From the NCBI GenBank assembly GCA_949298955.1, contig CASFYQ010000011.1, positions 1 to 64,000 on the forward strand: DNA of 64,000 bases, given 5' to 3'. The notes beneath the pieces are model-generated. The model saw nothing but the letters and a program-made list of their open reading frames with translations, was not told where the DNA came from and did not search any database. Source of the stretch: an uncultured Bacteroidales bacterium (GTDB lineage Bacteria > Bacteroidota > Bacteroidia > Bacteroidales > Barnesiellaceae). The translations under genes and the position numbers were made by a program. Positions 5,357-58,516 of this stretch are shown one piece after another. Numbering within the stretch: position 1 is the first letter of the stretch; every line of letters begins with the position of its first letter.

Positions 5357-5881
5357 TCAATATTTGATTAGAGCCTCTACCTCGACATCATCGGGGAAAG
5401 CCTCACGACCTTTCAGAAACTCCAGTTCAACGAGGAAATTGACATATACTTTTTTCGGATTAAATCGTTTCACCAGGTTATAAGCGGCAAGCATTGTCCC
5501 CCCCGTCGCCAGCAAATCGTCGTGTAGCAAAACCACGTCGTTTTCGCAAAGGGCATCTTTGTGAATCTCGATTACGTCTACCCCATACTCTTTGGTATAA
5601 CTTTCCTGCCAAGTCTCAGCGGGCAGTTTCCCGGGCTTACGCATAGGTACGAATCCGGCACCGATGCGGGTAGCCACAATAGGCCCCATGATGAACCCGC
5701 GAGATTCGATACCTACCACCTTGGTAATACCCTTTTCGGCATATATCCGAGTGAGCATGTCCGAGAGTTCCCTCAAACAATCGGGTTCTTTAAAAACCGT
5801 AGTCAAATCTCTAAACACGATACCCTTTTGCGGGAAATCGGCCACATCGCGAATCTTGCTTTTAATAGTTTCTAAACTCAT
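5357..5881 (-). CDS. apt: adenine phosphoribosyltransferase
   Basis: Apt salvages adenine to AMP using PRPP in the cytoplasm. The protein is 174 residues, the standard length. The PRPP-binding loop VVLLHDDLLATGGT and the upstream VVGIESRGFIMG are both clear. It lies between mnmG (73 bases upstream) and uvrC (6 bases downstream) on the same strand, which suggests one transcript. Confidence 0.95.
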   Translation of the reverse strand: MSLETIKSKIRDVADFPQKGIVFRDLTTVFKEPDCLRELSDMLTRIYAEKGITKVVGIESRGFIMGPIVATRIGAGFVPMRKPGKLPAETWQESYTKEYGVDVIEIHKDALCENDVVLLHDDLLATGGTMLAAYNLVKRFNPKKVYVNFLVELEFLKGREAFPDDVEVEALIKY

Positions 5882-5954
5882 TTTTATTCTTGTTTTTTTA
5901 TTTGTTCTTTCCTTTTGCAGAGAGGCTTTTCGCTATTTTGTTTCACGTGAAACA

Positions 5955-7829
5955 TCAGCGCCCGCACAGCAACAACAAAATGTTTATATCACTCGGCGAG
6001 ATACCGGGGATACGCGATGCCTGTGCAATGGTTTCGGGGTCTATCCGTTCCAGTTTCTGACGTGCTTCGGTCGACAGAGCCTGTATTTCGCCATACTTGA
6101 ATTTCCCCCGTATGCGAATATGCTCCAATCGGGCAATCTTCTCGGCAATCATCTTCTCCCGATCTATATACCCTTGATATTTCATCTTTATCTCAGCGGC
6201 CTCTACAATTTCGTCTTGTCGGTTTTTAATGGAACTTATCTCCCGTTTCAATGCAGGGACAAGTTGTGAAAGTTGCACCAAATCGAGTTGCGGACGTAGA
6301 ACGAGGTCTATCAGGCGCACTCCCTGTTTCAGCGGCGTAGTACCCAAAGCCTCCAAACCGGCATTGATATAAGCCGGTTTTATCGAATAGTTTTCGGCAA
6401 AACGAATCAAATGATCAATCTTGTCTCGCTTTTCGGTGAGCAAATCATAGCGGTCCTGTTTGGCCAGCCCCAGTCGATATGAGCGTTCTGTCAATCGCAT
6501 ATCGGCATCGTCCTGACGCAGCAGGATACGGTATTCGGCCCGCGAGGTAAACATACGATAGGGCTCATCGACCCCTTTTGTTACCAAGTCATCGATAAGC
6601 ACGCCTATATAGGCTTCGTCGCGCCCCAACGTAAAAGGTGCACCGCCATGACAGTTGACATGAGCGTTTATCCCGGCAATGAGCCCCTGCCCTCCGGCCT
6701 CTTCATACCCGGTTGTTCCGTTTATCTGGCCGGCAAAAAACAGGTTGCGAATCTGCTTCGTTTCGAGATTATGATTCAACTGTGTAGGATCGAAATAGTC
6801 ATATTCGATGGCATATCCGGGACGATATATGTGCACATCGCGCAACGCCGGAATAGCCTGCAATGCCCTCACTTGCACATCGAGCGGCAACGATGAGGAG
6901 AAGCCATTGAGGTAATACTCCTGAGTCGTCTCCCCCTCGGGTTCGAGAAAGAGCTGATGCTCCGTTTTATCGGGGAAAGTAACGATTTTAGTCTCGATAC
7001 TGGGACAATAACGAGGGCCTATGCTCTGTATCTGTCCATTGTAAAGAGGCGAATCGGGTAGTCCGGCACGCAGGATTTCGTGCACTTGTTCGTTGGTATA
7101 GATTGTCCAGCAACTGCGCTGTTTCAATGGACGAGGCTTAAAATCGAGAAACGAAAACTTGTGAAAATCATTCTCTCCTTGCTGTTCGACCGCCTCGTCA
7201 AAATGGATACTACGACCATCGATACGTACAGGAGTACCGGTTTTCATACGCCCGGCCGTAAAACCCAATTCCACCAACTGTTCGGTAATTCCATATGAAG
7301 CCGGTTCCGATATGCGGCCACCATGCAGTTGCGTGCGACCGATATGCATCAAGCCATTCATAAACGTGCCCGTCGTAAGCACCACACACTTGGCTGTAAA
7401 GGTCACATGCATGGAAGTCACTACACCCGTCACCTGCCCATCTTTTACAAGAATCTGATTTACAGAATCTTGCCACATATATAAATTTTCGGTATTCTCG
7501 AGAATCGAACGCCAGGTGGTGATAAACCGAGCCCGGTCGCTTTGCGACCGAGGACTCCACATGGCAGGGCCTTTCGAGCGGTTCAACATTCTGAACTGTA
7601 TCGCCGTCTCGTCGGTCACGATGCCCATGAAACCACCCAAAGCATCTATTTCGCGAACAATCTGCCCCTTGGCAATCCCACCTACGGCCGGGTTGCAACT
7701 CATTTGAGCTATCTTGTTCATATCCATAGTGATAAGCAGGGTTTTCGAGCCTAAATTGGCCGAAGCGCACGCCGCTTCACAACCGGCATGGCCTGCGCCC
7801 ACTACGATTACATCATAATTAAAATCCAT
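5955..7829 (-). CDS. mnmG: tRNA uridine-5-carboxymethylaminomethyl modification enzyme MnmG (GidA)
   Basis: MnmG acts with MnmE to add the cmnm5 group to uridine 34 of certain tRNAs. The protein is 624 residues, the usual size. The N-terminal FAD-binding Rossmann motif is VVGAGHAGCEAA, followed by CNPAVGGIAKGQ, and the second signature GGQGLIAGINA... region (EEAGGQGLIAGINAH) is intact. The C-terminal helical MnmE-interacting part is full length. It lies downstream of ybeY with a 73-base gap. Confidence 0.96.
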   Translation of the reverse strand: MDFNYDVIVVGAGHAGCEAACASANLGSKTLLITMDMNKIAQMSCNPAVGGIAKGQIVREIDALGGFMGIVTDETAIQFRMLNRSKGPAMWSPRSQSDRARFITTWRSILENTENLYMWQDSVNQILVKDGQVTGVVTSMHVTFTAKCVVLTTGTFMNGLMHIGRTQLHGGRISEPASYGITEQLVELGFTAGRMKTGTPVRIDGRSIHFDEAVEQQGENDFHKFSFLDFKPRPLKQRSCWTIYTNEQVHEILRAGLPDSPLYNGQIQSIGPRYCPSIETKIVTFPDKTEHQLFLEPEGETTQEYYLNGFSSSLPLDVQVRALQAIPALRDVHIYRPGYAIEYDYFDPTQLNHNLETKQIRNLFFAGQINGTTGYEEAGGQGLIAGINAHVNCHGGAPFTLGRDEAYIGVLIDDLVTKGVDEPYRMFTSRAEYRILLRQDDADMRLTERSYRLGLAKQDRYDLLTEKRDKIDHLIRFAENYSIKPAYINAGLEALGTTPLKQGVRLIDLVLRPQLDLVQLSQLVPALKREISSIKNRQDEIVEAAEIKMKYQGYIDREKMIAEKIARLEHIRIRGKFKYGEIQALSTEARQKLERIDPETIAQASRIPGISPSDINILLLLCGR

Positions 7830-43937: not shown

Positions 43938-44927
43938 TTAAATTCCCAGCGAAGCCGATATGTCGAGCATACGCCGTATAGGCTTGATAGCCTCCCGGGC
44001 TATTGCCTCGTCGACAATTATCTCGGGTAACTCGTATTTGAGCGTATTATACAGTTTTTCCATCGTATTCAACCGCATGAAATTACATTCGCTGCAACCG
44101 CAAGTACTGTCTTCGGGAGGAGCCGGAATAAACTCTTTATCGGGATTATTCTTTTTCATTTCGTGGAGAATACCCGATTCGGTAGCTACTATAAACCGTT
44201 TACATTCGCTCTGCGTGGCAAAACGCAATAGAGCTGCCGTCGAACCTACCTTATCGGCAACGAGCAAAATATCGCGTTTGCACTCGGGGTGAGCCAACAG
44301 CAAAGCATCGGGATACTGTTTTTTCAAAGCGACAATCTTTTCAAGAGAGAATTGCGAATGCACATGACAGGCACCATCCCACAACAACATATTTCGACCG
44401 GTCACTCCGTTGATATAATTGCCTAAATTTTTATCGGGCCCGAATATGATTTTTTCGTTTTCGGGGAAACTTTCTACAATTTGTTTGGCGTTCGACGATG
44501 TAACTACCACATCGGTATGAGCTTTCACGGCTGCCGATGTGTTCACATACGAAACCACCTTGTAACCGGGATGCTGTTTTACAAACTCGGCAAAGCTGTC
44601 GGCCGGACAACTGTCGGCCAACGAACAACCGGCATTCAAATCCGGTATAAGCACTTTTTTGTCTGGACAGATAATCTTGGCCGTCTCACCCATGAAATGA
44701 ACACCGCAAAGAACAAGAATCGAAGCATCGGTCTTGGCAGCCCACTGAGCCAAAGCCAACGAATCGCCTACATAATCGGCAATATCCTGTATCTCGCCAG
44801 CCTGATAGAAATGAGCCAATACAACGGCATTCTTCTCTCGTTTCATCTTTTCGATTTCAGTTACCAGGTCTACACCTTCGGGAACAGGCATATCCACATA
44901 ACCTTTTGAGATATTTACATCGAACAT
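43938..44927 (-). CDS. nadA: quinolinate synthase A
   Basis: NadA condenses iminoaspartate with dihydroxyacetone phosphate to quinolinate using a [4Fe-4S] cluster. The protein is 329 residues. The three Cys ligands fit CGVHFMGE near residue 85, NAGCSLADSCPAD near 110, and STCGCSECN near the C-terminus. The start used is the ATG at 44927; an in-frame TTG nine codons upstream follows a lysine-rich run and is not homologous to other NadA starts. Its partner nadB is 24 kb away. Confidence 0.95.
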   Translation of the reverse strand: MFDVNISKGYVDMPVPEGVDLVTEIEKMKREKNAVVLAHFYQAGEIQDIADYVGDSLALAQWAAKTDASILVLCGVHFMGETAKIICPDKKVLIPDLNAGCSLADSCPADSFAEFVKQHPGYKVVSYVNTSAAVKAHTDVVVTSSNAKQIVESFPENEKIIFGPDKNLGNYINGVTGRNMLLWDGACHVHSQFSLEKIVALKKQYPDALLLAHPECKRDILLVADKVGSTAALLRFATQSECKRFIVATESGILHEMKKNNPDKEFIPAPPEDSTCGCSECNFMRLNTMEKLYNTLKYELPEIIVDEAIAREAIKPIRRMLDISASLGI

Positions 44928-45130
44928 ATATATATTCTTTTTTTTATTTTTCAATTAAATCTTTTTTTGTTGATGATAATAGATTGTTGACAGCAATGAT
45001 AACTTCTTGTTAAAAGACTTGCTTTTTATTTTATCAACGTCAGGCTCTCGGTTATATTGGTTTTGTCAACATCATTATCTATTTACAATGAGTTTTTTAT
45101 ACTCTTTATCAACGCCTTGTTTACAAACTG

Positions 45131-45138
45131 CAAAGTTA
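45131..45138 (-). promoter_or_regulatory. Possible -7 element for nadA
   Basis: TAACTTTG on the minus strand, about 200 bases before the nadA ATG. No -33 element at standard spacing. Confidence 0.4.
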
Positions 45139-45221
45139 ATAACTTTATTCTATTTGTATGATTGATAAACAGATATTTTGAGGTGGATATATCAACTAAA
45201 AACTTGTGGTTTTATTATTTG

Positions 45222-45229
45222 TATCTTTG
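45222..45229 (+). promoter_or_regulatory. Possible upstream -7 element toward the SPOUT gene
   Basis: TATCTTTG on the plus strand, 198 bases ahead of the methyltransferase ATG, with DnaA-box sites downstream of it. It may be a second promoter or a start point for transcription through the candidate origin. Confidence 0.4.
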
Positions 45230-45394
45230 TAATGTTTGCTTGTATAGCGATAAATTCATAATGTCAAAATTTAGATGTACTTTTTATGCAATCGTTTTAT
45301 AACCTTTTATCCACACTTGTACACACACTTATTCACGATGTTGTCGATAAAGCTGTAATTCTGTTGTAAATCTATATTTATTATCGATTTGCAT

Positions 45395-45402
45395 TATCTT
45401 TG
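45395..45402 (+). promoter_or_regulatory. Promoter -7 element of the SPOUT methyltransferase gene
   Basis: TATCTTTG ends 25 bases before the ATG at 45428, so the predicted leader is about 18 bases. Confidence 0.6.
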
Positions 45403-45427
45403 TAAACGTTTGTAGAAGCTATAATTT

Positions 45428-45958
45428 ATGAAGAAAAAGAGTATTCTCGATCTGCATCGCATTACGCAAGAAGAGTTTAAACATATCGAAAAGATACCAT
45501 TAGCCGTAGTTTTGGATAATGTACGCAGTTTAAATAACATCGGTTCGGTTTTTCGCACGGCCGATGCTTTCAAGGTATCGTGCATTTATTTGTGCGGAAT
45601 CACGGCTACACCGCCTCATACCGATATACACAAGACAGCCCTGGGTGCCGAAGATAGTGTCGATTGGATATATGAGCAAGATACTTGTGCGGTTGTCGAT
45701 GAGTTATTAAGCAAAGGATACGAGGTTTATGCCGTAGAGCAGGTAGAAGGAAGTATAAGTCTTACCGACATCGAATTGGACAGAAATAAAAAATATGCGG
45801 TCATATTGGGCAACGAGGTGAAAGGAGTACAACAGTCGGTCGTAGATAAGTGCACGGGAAGCATCGAGATACCTCAATTCGGTACCAAACATTCATTAAA
45901 TGTGTCGGTTACTGCCGGCCTGGTTATTTGGGACTTTTTCAAACAGTTGGGATTATAG
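45428..45958 (+). CDS. TrmH/SpoU-type RNA 2'-O-methyltransferase
   Basis: This 176-residue single SPOUT domain protein has the three TrmH motifs: VLDNVRSLNNIGSVFRTADAF (motif 1, with the catalytic Arg), YAVILGNEVKGV (motif 2) and IEIPQFGTKHSLNVSVTAGLVIW (motif 3). It forms a knotted SAM site and methylates a ribose in tRNA or rRNA; the target base is not predictable. It lies alone between the two AT-rich, DnaA-box-containing gaps. Confidence 0.92.
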   Translation: MKKKSILDLHRITQEEFKHIEKIPLAVVLDNVRSLNNIGSVFRTADAFKVSCIYLCGITATPPHTDIHKTALGAEDSVDWIYEQDTCAVVDELLSKGYEVYAVEQVEGSISLTDIELDRNKKYAVILGNEVKGVQQSVVDKCTGSIEIPQFGTKHSLNVSVTAGLVIWDFFKQLGL

Positions 45959-46555
45959 CGATCCTTGTTCTACCAAAACACAAATTCGTTCTATTGTCTT
46001 GTCTTTACCTTCGGGATCCCAATCGGTTTTAAGCGAAGCACCGAATAATTTACCAAAGAATTGCCAAAAATTAGCTCTGAAACTACCCAAAAAAGCCTTT
46101 ATCAATTCATATGATGATTGATTACATTCCCTGTTAATCAACTTGATAAGCATTTTACCCTGCGATAGGGTAAATTTTTTCAACACAGGTTTATATTGTT
46201 GGAAAACTTCTTTTTCCATACGTTTCATGTGCTCTTCGCGAGCCTTGTCGTCGGGCAGAGTTTCCATATATTCATAAGTCTCTATGAATATGGCATAGAT
46301 GAGTTTGGCATATGGTAATGCCTTTTTTACATCGCGCACCGTTTTCCAGTAGAATTTCTCCTCTTTTTTGTTTTTGAATTTTTCAGGAGGATATACATAG
46401 AAAGTGCGCAGTCCAATCATACGCACGGTATCGTTATCAATGATAACCCGATAAAAATGTTTATAAGCCGGGTGTTCTTCCTGAAAAACTTGTGCTCGAA
46501 GGGCAGGTATAGTCAGAAAAACAGTAAAGAATAATATGAATAATCCTCTCTTCAT
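45953..46555 (-). CDS. DUF4294 family exported protein
   Basis: This 200-residue protein begins with a cleavable signal peptide (MKRGLFILFF ... PALRAQ). The DUF4294 core follows, with VIIDNDTVRMIGLRTFYVYPP, KFYWKTVRDVKKALPYAKL and NRECNQSSYELIKAFLGSF. The family is confined to Bacteroidota and its function is unknown to me. It overlaps the end of the SPOUT gene by 6 bases. The start at 46555 (ATG) is preferred to the TTG three codons upstream. Its -7 box sits 6 bases upstream of the ATG. Confidence 0.88.
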   Translation of the reverse strand: MKRGLFILFFTVFLTIPALRAQVFQEEHPAYKHFYRVIIDNDTVRMIGLRTFYVYPPEKFKNKKEEKFYWKTVRDVKKALPYAKLIYAIFIETYEYMETLPDDKAREEHMKRMEKEVFQQYKPVLKKFTLSQGKMLIKLINRECNQSSYELIKAFLGSFRANFWQFFGKLFGASLKTDWDPEGKDKTIERICVLVEQGSL

Positions 46556-46561
46556 TGGGTA

Positions 46562-46569
46562 CAAATGTA
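46562..46569 (-). promoter_or_regulatory. -7 element of the DUF4294 gene
   Basis: TACATTTG on the minus strand; only 6 bases separate it from the ATG, so the transcript might be leaderless. Confidence 0.45.
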
Positions 46570-46963
46570 AATCATTCGCTATTTCAATGATTATTTTTTT
46601 GCAATAATTATAATATTCACAGCTGTTTATAGCGAGTGTGCATAGATTGTCGATAGTTTGTGAATAAAGAAGTTTATAATAAGTAAATAGGTTGATAAAT
46701 AATTATTTATAAATTGTTGATAAATGCACATACAATGAGTTTTCCATGGTTGAAATCTTGTGAATAAGCTGTTGGTATGGTTTTGAAAGCTATATAGTAT
46801 TTTATCTCTTTGCCAATAAGTTTACAAGTTGTTGATAGAAATGTAAATATAAAATTCATATCATTGAAAAACAGATAAATAGTAGCTATTCACAGGTGTG
46901 TATAAACTTAAAAATCTATATATTGATTTTTCTAAAATCTATGGTTGAATAATAGATAAACCC

Positions 46964-46971
46964 TACCTTTG
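46964..46971 (+). promoter_or_regulatory. Promoter -7 element of the radical SAM gene
   Basis: TACCTTTG ends 21 bases before the ATG at 46993. A short palindrome (CCCT...AGGG) encloses it. Confidence 0.6.
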
Positions 46972-46992
46972 CAGGGTAAAAAGTATTTTGTT

Positions 46993-47772: not shown

Positions 47773-47810
47773 TAATAAATAGAATAAAATGCCTGATGAT
47801 ACAGGTGTAT

Positions 47811-47852
47811 AAAAAAACAAACCCGGAGTGAAAACCCCGGGTTTGTTTTTTT
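47811..47852. terminator. Bidirectional terminator between radical SAM and sdhB
   Basis: AAAAACAAACCCGG and CCGGGTTTGTTTTT form a perfect 14-bp stem with a 10-base loop. It has A runs on one side and T runs on the other, so it works for both converging genes. Confidence 0.9.
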
Positions 47853-47874
47853 ATAGTGAAAGTCTGTTCGTATT

Positions 47875-58341: not shown

Positions 58342-58346
58342 CGAAG

Positions 58347-58420
58347 CTCTTCAGGTTGGACTTGAACCAACGACCCTCTGATTAACAGTCAGATGCTCTA
58401 ACCGACTGAGCTACTGAAGA
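58347..58420 (-). tRNA. tRNA-Asn (anticodon GTT), downstream copy
   Basis: A 74-base cloverleaf on the minus strand: acceptor stem TCTTCAG with CTGAAGA, D arm GCTCAGTCGGTTAGAGC, anticodon loop CTGTTAA (GTT, Asn), T arm GTTGGTTCAAGTCCAAC. CCA is not encoded. It is identical to the copy 96 bases away. Confidence 0.95.
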
Positions 58421-58442
58421 ATAAATGTATCAAAATGTTTGG

Positions 58443-58516
58443 CTCTTCAGGTTGGACTTGAACCAACGACCCTCTGATTAACAGTCAGATGCTCTAACCG
58501 ACTGAGCTACTGAAGA
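58443..58516 (-). tRNA. tRNA-Asn (anticodon GTT), upstream copy
   Basis: Identical in sequence to the 58347..58420 copy, in the same orientation with a 22-base spacer. The two share the promoter on the right and the terminator on the left, so they form one transcript. Confidence 0.95.

Follow-up and report, generated by a model that had tools for sequence, protein, structure and literature searches.

The window analysed here is a stretch of 64,000 nucleotides (C11:1-64000) from a draft assembly whose 30 contigs add up to 2,544,807 bases, and the contig to which it belongs, C11, comprises 86,006 bases. The gene order at the locus is a YitT-like gene (-), leuS (-), nadA (-), a first gap, a gene for a SPOUT RNA methyltransferase (+), a DUF4294 gene (-), a second gap, a radical-SAM gene (+) and sdhB/A/C (-), with the YitT and sdh names being our assumption from the protein sequences. 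The original prediction had described two AT-rich gaps, rich in DnaA boxes, around the SPOUT and DUF4294 genes, and this description was confirmed both by the base composition (74% AT in either gap) and by the domain matches of the two proteins. Beyond that description, nadA and the radical-SAM gene are the outer neighbours of the gaps, and the start codon of nadA abuts the AT tract of gap 1 (Table 1). Among the matches listed, the closest relatives at the locus are Barnesiella metagenome genomes, whose SPOUT protein is 89-90% identical. Both gaps are among the least stable DNA of the window, where stability was computed and opening is a prediction; the least stable 50-mer of the window lies at 46664, in gap 2 and not in gap 1. 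A sigma-70 promoter scan showed no excess (seven found, 9.9 expected), and an Rfam scan gave five matches, all below threshold and all on a single hairpin at 47.8 kb, outside the origin. This hairpin (window 47799-47867) lies between the radical-SAM and sdhB genes and is probably a two-way terminator. Two tRNA-Asn (gtt) genes stand in tandem on the minus strand at 58346-58516 of the window.

Table 1. Positions of the features at the candidate origin and of the parS site (window coordinates).
Feature	Position	Strand	Basis and remarks
parS, exact TGTTTCACGTGAAACA	5939..5954		genome-wide the sole site at 0-2 mismatches; putative marker of the origin domain
nadA (quinolinate synthase), left border	43938..44927	-	PF02445, TIGR00550; start codon by alignment of relatives
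Gap 1, candidate main origin region	44928..45427		74% AT; 7 TTRTNNACA matches; skew minimum inside
AT tract, predicted unwinding element	44928..44971	-	third separate least-stable 50-mer place of the window, not the least stable
Trinucleotide run ATT-ATC-ATC, predicted DnaA-trios	44972..44980	-	sequence; core conservation
Spacer ATCT	44981..44984	-	alignment; GC-rich in close relatives (e.g. GGCT, GCCT)
Core DnaA box CTGTCAACA	44985..44993	-	matrix match; 2 mismatches to TTATCAACA, 3 to TTATCCACA
DnaA box	45008..45016	-	matrix match
DnaA box TTATCAACG	45031..45039	+	matrix match
DnaA box TTATCAACG	45106..45114	+	matrix match; largely retained in Barnesiella relatives
Probable nadA promoter element TAACTTTG	45131..45138	-	GCAAAGTTA in gaps of relatives (see text)
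DnaA box TTATCCACA (E. coli consensus)	45307..45315	+	pattern match; slightly below matrix threshold
DnaA box TTATCGACA	45342..45350	-	pattern and matrix match
Probable SPOUT promoter element TATCTTTG	45395..45402	+	conserved in 5 aligned Barnesiella-type gaps
SPOUT (SpoU family) RNA methyltransferase gene	45428..45958	+	PF00588; between the clusters
DUF4294 gene	45953..46555	-	PF14127; between the clusters
Gap 2, second box cluster	46556..46992		74% AT; 6 matrix matches; stability scan
DnaA box	46624..46632	-	matrix match
DnaA box TTATCAACA	46715..46723	-	pattern and matrix match; conserved in aligned Barnesiella gaps
DnaA box TTATTCACA	46759..46767	-	pattern and matrix match
DnaA box	46830..46838	-	matrix match
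DnaA box	46886..46894	+	matrix match
DnaA box TTATACACA	46897..46905	-	pattern and matrix match

The pattern TTRTNNACA was matched seven times in gap 1, at six sites of which one is readable on both strands, as compared with 0.61 expected from dinucleotide shuffles (p 0.001). Gap 2 holds four matches (0.50 expected, p 0.003), and both gaps are in excess of the shuffles while the 1.1 kb of SPOUT and DUF4294 sequence between them is not (1 match, 0.46 expected, p 0.36). The stricter pattern TTATNNACA gave a weaker result in gap 1 (2 against 0.40, p 0.056), and a single one of the boxes reads as the E. coli consensus. Clusters were compared between the window and 40 stretches of 20 kb each, drawn from 20 contigs, with about 64% of the genome outside this sample; the best 500-bp cluster counted seven boxes and lies at position 44984 of the window, the next best counted four. 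A box matrix was trained on the 73 nadA-SPOUT gaps described below. Its consensus is TTATCAACA, with A at position 6 in 85%, where the E. coli box has C. Across the window, the matrix gave 96 matches, five in gap 1, six in gap 2, one between them and 84 elsewhere; because so many fall elsewhere, single matches mean little and only their clustering counts.

A switch in the sign of GC skew had been noted at the same place, and it was confirmed at gap 1, from minus to plus. In 2-kb windows, skew left of 45 kb ranges from -0.07 to -0.22 (the first window has -0.02), and from 45 kb rightwards it is positive apart from a near-zero dip at 51-55 kb (+0.007, -0.017, +0.003). With 10 kb taken on each side, cumulative skew reaches its minimum within gap 1, at 278 bp 5' of the SPOUT start. 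Skew stays positive over 47-52 kb despite the minus-strand sdhB/A/C genes; therefore, gene orientation alone is not the cause of the switch. The wider survey comprised 43 stretches of 20 kb plus the window from contigs C1-C20 of the draft assembly, with C21-C30 (about 106 kb) outside the sample. C11 is the only contig among these 20 of 30 that turns clearly from minus to plus, so that the cumulative-skew check proposed for the candidate gave a local minimum in gap 1 and no other clear turn of this kind in the contigs sampled. There are small exceptions: the sampled part of C9 ends in 10 kb at +0.016 that follow negative values, and a plus-to-minus change inside one stretch occurs both in C2 and in C20. 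On C1, skew turns from plus to minus near 200 kb, which fits the expectation for a terminus. Near this skew maximum we searched for dif, using what we take to be the E. coli dif sequence; the best match had 7 mismatches, as compared with 7-10 in 19 control stretches. Since this is no better than the controls, dif was not identified and the placement of the terminus by this site was rejected.

The exact parS site and the candidate origin share one contig and are 39 kb apart, and in the same genome the reversed parS pattern, used as a control, has three chance places at up to 2 mismatches. The site lies directly 3' of a gene that we presume from its protein sequence to be mnmG/gidA (5955-7829, -), between this gene and an apt-like gene (5357-5881, -). 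In E. coli, mnmG/gidA sits in the origin region, while here it carries parS at 39 kb from the origin; E. coli is not known to have a parS system. The genes for ParB (C7:27830-28360) and DnaA (C9:219-1583) are both found away from the contig of the origin and parS. The original prediction had held that the absence of dnaA beside the candidate is no objection. This view agrees with the position of dnaA on another contig and with the parts consulted of an account of the phylum in which origins are commonly distant from dnaA (PMC4755523). In twelve gut bacteria, parS clusters and GC skew, backed by read coverage, were used to locate the origin, which is not always at dnaA (PMC10197239, as far as consulted). 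At our locus, a box cluster above chance, a skew minimum, AT-rich DNA by the boxes and a parS site in the surrounding domain occur together in a genome that has parB.

We next to these features considered the same locus in relatives. SPOUT homologues were collected at 109 loci, composed of the best 80 of 583 and 29 from further genomes; at least two contigs are represented twice in this set (L017/L104 and L009/L040). At 73 loci, the window included and the pair L017/L104 counted within, nadA lies divergently beside SPOUT. The expectation that boxes would be kept at the same position in relatives was borne out across these nadA-SPOUT gaps: TTATCAACA was recovered without a prior motif in 44 of the 73, with 1.2 expected from base shuffles. 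GCAAAGTTA was found in 47 of the 73 (0.3 expected); TAACTTTG and TATCTTTG of the window are taken to be promoter elements on the assumption of a TAnnTTTG consensus. Within 8 kb on both sides, the cumulative-skew minimum falls inside the gap at 28 of 45 linked loci, outside it at 17 of the 45, and inside at 2 of 12 unlinked loci. The SPOUT loci without a nadA neighbour are not a clean negative group, as in some of them (L043, L048, L060) the contig breaks off shortly upstream of SPOUT. The best box cluster lies inside the gap at 34 of 45 linked and 2 of 12 unlinked loci; this count is partly circular, as the matrix was trained on the same gaps, while the skew count is not. The best matrix cluster of the window itself is in gap 2.

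E. coli has clusters of DnaA boxes without a replication function, datA and DARS, and the clusters seen here might by analogy be a site of DnaA titration or reactivation near the true origin, for which the putative mechanism of gap 2 leaves room. However, the skew minimum falls within the cluster itself, both in the window and at those 28 linked loci, and no equally dense cluster was met in the 40 stretches scored, which leave about 64% of the genome outside the sample. We regard a titration site as very improbable and an origin at this place as the better reading.

In eight relatives, nadA and a parS-like site were found on one contig. From nadA, the nearest such site is at 12 kb (G153), 13 kb (G145), 15 kb (G154), 32 kb (G149), 38 kb (G148), 85 kb (G151), 115 kb (G152) and 145 kb (G150, a poor site, with the next one at 303 kb). 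These distances are strong only in part, because the site is exact in G149 and has 1 or 2 mismatches in the remaining seven, and because G152, G153 and G154 have extra matches on other contigs. On the 1.38-Mb contig of G145, skew changes at nadA-SPOUT, with noise.

Where nadA and SPOUT stand head to head, the gaps have a conserved core in common, which on the nadA strand reads TATCAACA-GGCT-ATTATCATCA and is positioned ahead of an AT tract that runs to the nadA start codon. The core can be parsed as a box TTATCAACA, a spacer GGCT and the trinucleotides ATT-ATC-ATC, which read 3'-TAA-TAG-TAG-5' on the other strand. Within 6 mismatches, the core TATCAACAGGCTATTATCATCA was found in 65 of the 73 gaps, as compared with 7 of 1460 shuffles (20 per gap). 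The copy in the window is weaker than those of the relatives, with 3 mismatches, an AT spacer and a core box 3 mismatches off the E. coli box. To find a basal unwinding system (BUS), a published rule asks for a DnaA box, a spacer of up to 16 bp and at least three 3'-NAN-5' (PMC8287927), and a GC-rich motif of 4-5 bp has been described between the box and the DnaA-trios (PMC8235120; both sources seen in part). In the window, the spacer has 4 bp (44981-44984) and three 3'-NAN-5' are present at 44972-44980, under a loose rule and with 3'-GAT-5' repeats absent; with up to 2 mismatches allowed for the box, that of the window has 3 to TTATCCACA and 2 to TTATCAACA, and the boxes of the relatives are better. 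The order of parts, a box followed by a short spacer, trinucleotides whose middle base is A and AT-rich DNA, resembles that in the BUS of the B. subtilis type as far as given in the parts consulted (PMC8287927, PMC6669920). In contrast to that system, TAA-TAG-TAG stands here in place of GAT repeats and the box belongs to the TTATCAACA type; the window copy, moreover, has a degenerate box and no GC-rich spacer.

We searched for the core with one mismatch in 148 genomes of the order and obtained 39 matches, as compared with 16 for the reversed control. The pattern is present in 31 of these genomes, and the window's own copy is missed at this stringency. Fifteen of the 39 matches lie within 220 bp upstream of nadA, eight of them in genomes with SPOUT elsewhere (hand count); SPOUT is a direct neighbour of nadA in 16 of the 148 genomes. 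The other 24 matches are not upstream of nadA, and two of these were placed, in G110 and G120. In G110, an exact match (C15:45454-45472) lies 81 bp upstream of SPOUT on SPOUT's own strand, with nadA on another contig. The G154 core (6 mismatches) is found just upstream of nadA at a skew change, together with four boxes and the parS-like site mentioned above. Among 198 genomes of the phylum (197 outside the order), the core pattern was not in excess, with 21 matches against 24 for the control.

In G120, a single contig of 4.3 Mb, the core (1,652,811) is surrounded by DNA free of ORFs of at least 80 aa and is far from both nadA (1,844,205; 191 kb from the core) and SPOUT (968,973). Seven matrix boxes in 500 bp form a single cluster in this region, and two parS-like sites with 2 mismatches each are found 20 kb from the core. 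Skew is mostly negative before about 1.65 Mb and mostly positive after, with noise. The origin of G120 is itself a prediction, because a further match to the core pattern occurs at 2,049,357 and skew changes sign several times. Skew flips of this kind along the contig (C1, loci L182-L201) look like those that follow large inversions. As the core is found away from nadA in other genomes, it is more than a nadA leader.

Boxes also extend into the SPOUT coding sequence of relatives. At the 73 linked loci, 52 of 81 xVD[KN] sites of SPOUT read TGTTGATAA, as compared with 3 of 91 in six other genes of the same loci and with 6% predicted from the codon use of the same SPOUT genes; a binomial p for this excess would be too small because the loci are related. 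Counting codons from zero, the box is present at codon 88 in 29 of 38, at codon 137 in 10 of 20, at codon 81 in 8 of 8 and at codon 87 in 2 of 5 sites. The control set of SPOUT genes without a nadA neighbour (37 loci) has it at 4 of 8 sites, and the window copy of SPOUT has no such in-gene box. The codon choice in SPOUT goes beyond what the protein sequence requires and is consistent with DnaA boxes being kept within the gene. These boxes bear on a rival reading, in which the gaps are regulatory regions where DnaA acts as a transcription factor on the radical-SAM gene, nadA and SPOUT, while replication starts elsewhere. The divergent promoter-like elements in gap 1 and the presence of the core pattern upstream of nadA in 15 genomes would suit such a role. 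However, it would not account for boxes within the SPOUT gene of relatives, for the core and boxes of G120 away from nadA with a skew change and parS-like sites, or for the fact that skew switches at our locus, with the genome's single parS site on the same contig. Regulation without an origin therefore appears highly unlikely to us, and we continue with the origin reading.

The second cluster is real but variable, as judged from the box counts upstream of DUF4294 and the single cluster of G120. On average, 2.10 matrix boxes were counted in the 400 bp upstream of DUF4294 (63 loci) and 0.37 in the control windows (827, AT-rich and overlapping); at least four boxes are found at 17 of the 63 loci and in 9 of the 827 controls. 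It is conceivable that the origin lies here as proposed, with the DNA opening in gap 2 and gap 1 being accessory, given that gap 2 has six matrix boxes to the five of gap 1, the densest matrix cluster within the 20 kb (8 in 500 bp) and the window's least stable 50-mer. However, the conserved core and the skew minimum are both in gap 1, and the 400 bp upstream of DUF4294 are devoid of matrix boxes at 16 of the 63 loci, which makes opening in gap 2 an unlikely course. We favour gap 1, whose conserved core by nadA refines the original prediction, gap 2 being a cluster that varies between species. The two clusters recall the bipartite origins of H. pylori and B. subtilis (PMC8235120, PMC5043019, in the parts consulted), where gene sequence separates two clusters of which one has a predicted unwinding element. 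In those bacteria, dnaA lies between the clusters; here it is SPOUT and DUF4294, and some relatives lack the second cluster. The bipartite appearance that gap 2 lends to the locus is not universal, and action in two parts is a lead.

Taken together, these results make 44928-46992 very likely to be the origin of chromosome replication (oriC), and we predict that its DNA opens in gap 1 by nadA. The origin function originally proposed from boxes and skew gains support from the conserved core and from the genome's only parS on the same contig. The mechanism with the best support has the DNA opening at the nadA-side core. DnaA, whose gene is on the other contig, would bind the boxes clustered in gap 1, load from box 44985-44993 onto the adjoining trinucleotide run as a single strand and open the AT tract ending at the nadA start, as in the B. 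subtilis BUS. The gap 2 cluster, about 1.1 kb off past SPOUT and DUF4294, may have an accessory role, with DnaA looping the two clusters together, comparable to what has been proposed for bipartite origins.

The host DnaA gave a full-length match, and in the alignment to 1j1v it has alanine at the position of E. coli T435 and also at that of P423. T435 is named as base-specific in the parts consulted of one study (PMC7561715). Alanine at the T435 position was found in all 20 readable of 21 Bacteroidales DnaA genes (L267 was unreadable by pattern). In other classes of the phylum, serine was found 22 times and threonine once, among 23 readable of 30 genes fetched; 61 genomes were searched, and the 30 include no other orders of the same class. 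The alanine alongside the TTATCAACA box is a correlation only, and a co-change of DnaA with its box may be taken as a lead.

E. coli oriC is likewise not beside dnaA and has an AT-rich unwinding element next to a box, while its box sequence and its neighbours differ from those described here. Among Bacteroidota, origins from Ori-Finder/DoriC such as that of Prevotella intermedia OMA14 are similar in having a DnaA-box cluster at a skew transition distant from dnaA; in the parts consulted, this account names neither core nor gene neighbourhood (PMC4755523). The same place in relatives may already be a DoriC entry. Our literature search, with supplements and DoriC outside its scope and papers seen in part, found no such core, no nadA-linked origin and no paper containing 'Bacteroidetes' together with 'DnaA-trio'.

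It is tempting to speculate that Bacteroidales possess an origin module of their own that can move as a unit to a new neighbourhood. In many families, its BUS-type core would sit on the nadA leader; its boxes would extend into the SPOUT coding sequence, kept there by fixed synonymous codons, and a DnaA alanine at the T435 position would be paired with the TTATCAACA box in place of TTATCCACA. We give this idea an even chance. Since dnaA is no origin marker in Bacteroidota, growth-rate estimates from read depth, the orientation of genomes and plasmid design are hampered. The core and its gene neighbourhood could serve as origin marks in many Bacteroidales, which would make placement of the origin possible even in draft genomes. 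Moreover, the core would turn the working of the B. subtilis unwinding system in this phylum into a testable question. If true, boxes kept by codon choice within a gene and a changed DnaA residue beside a changed box would represent co-evolution of initiator and origin.
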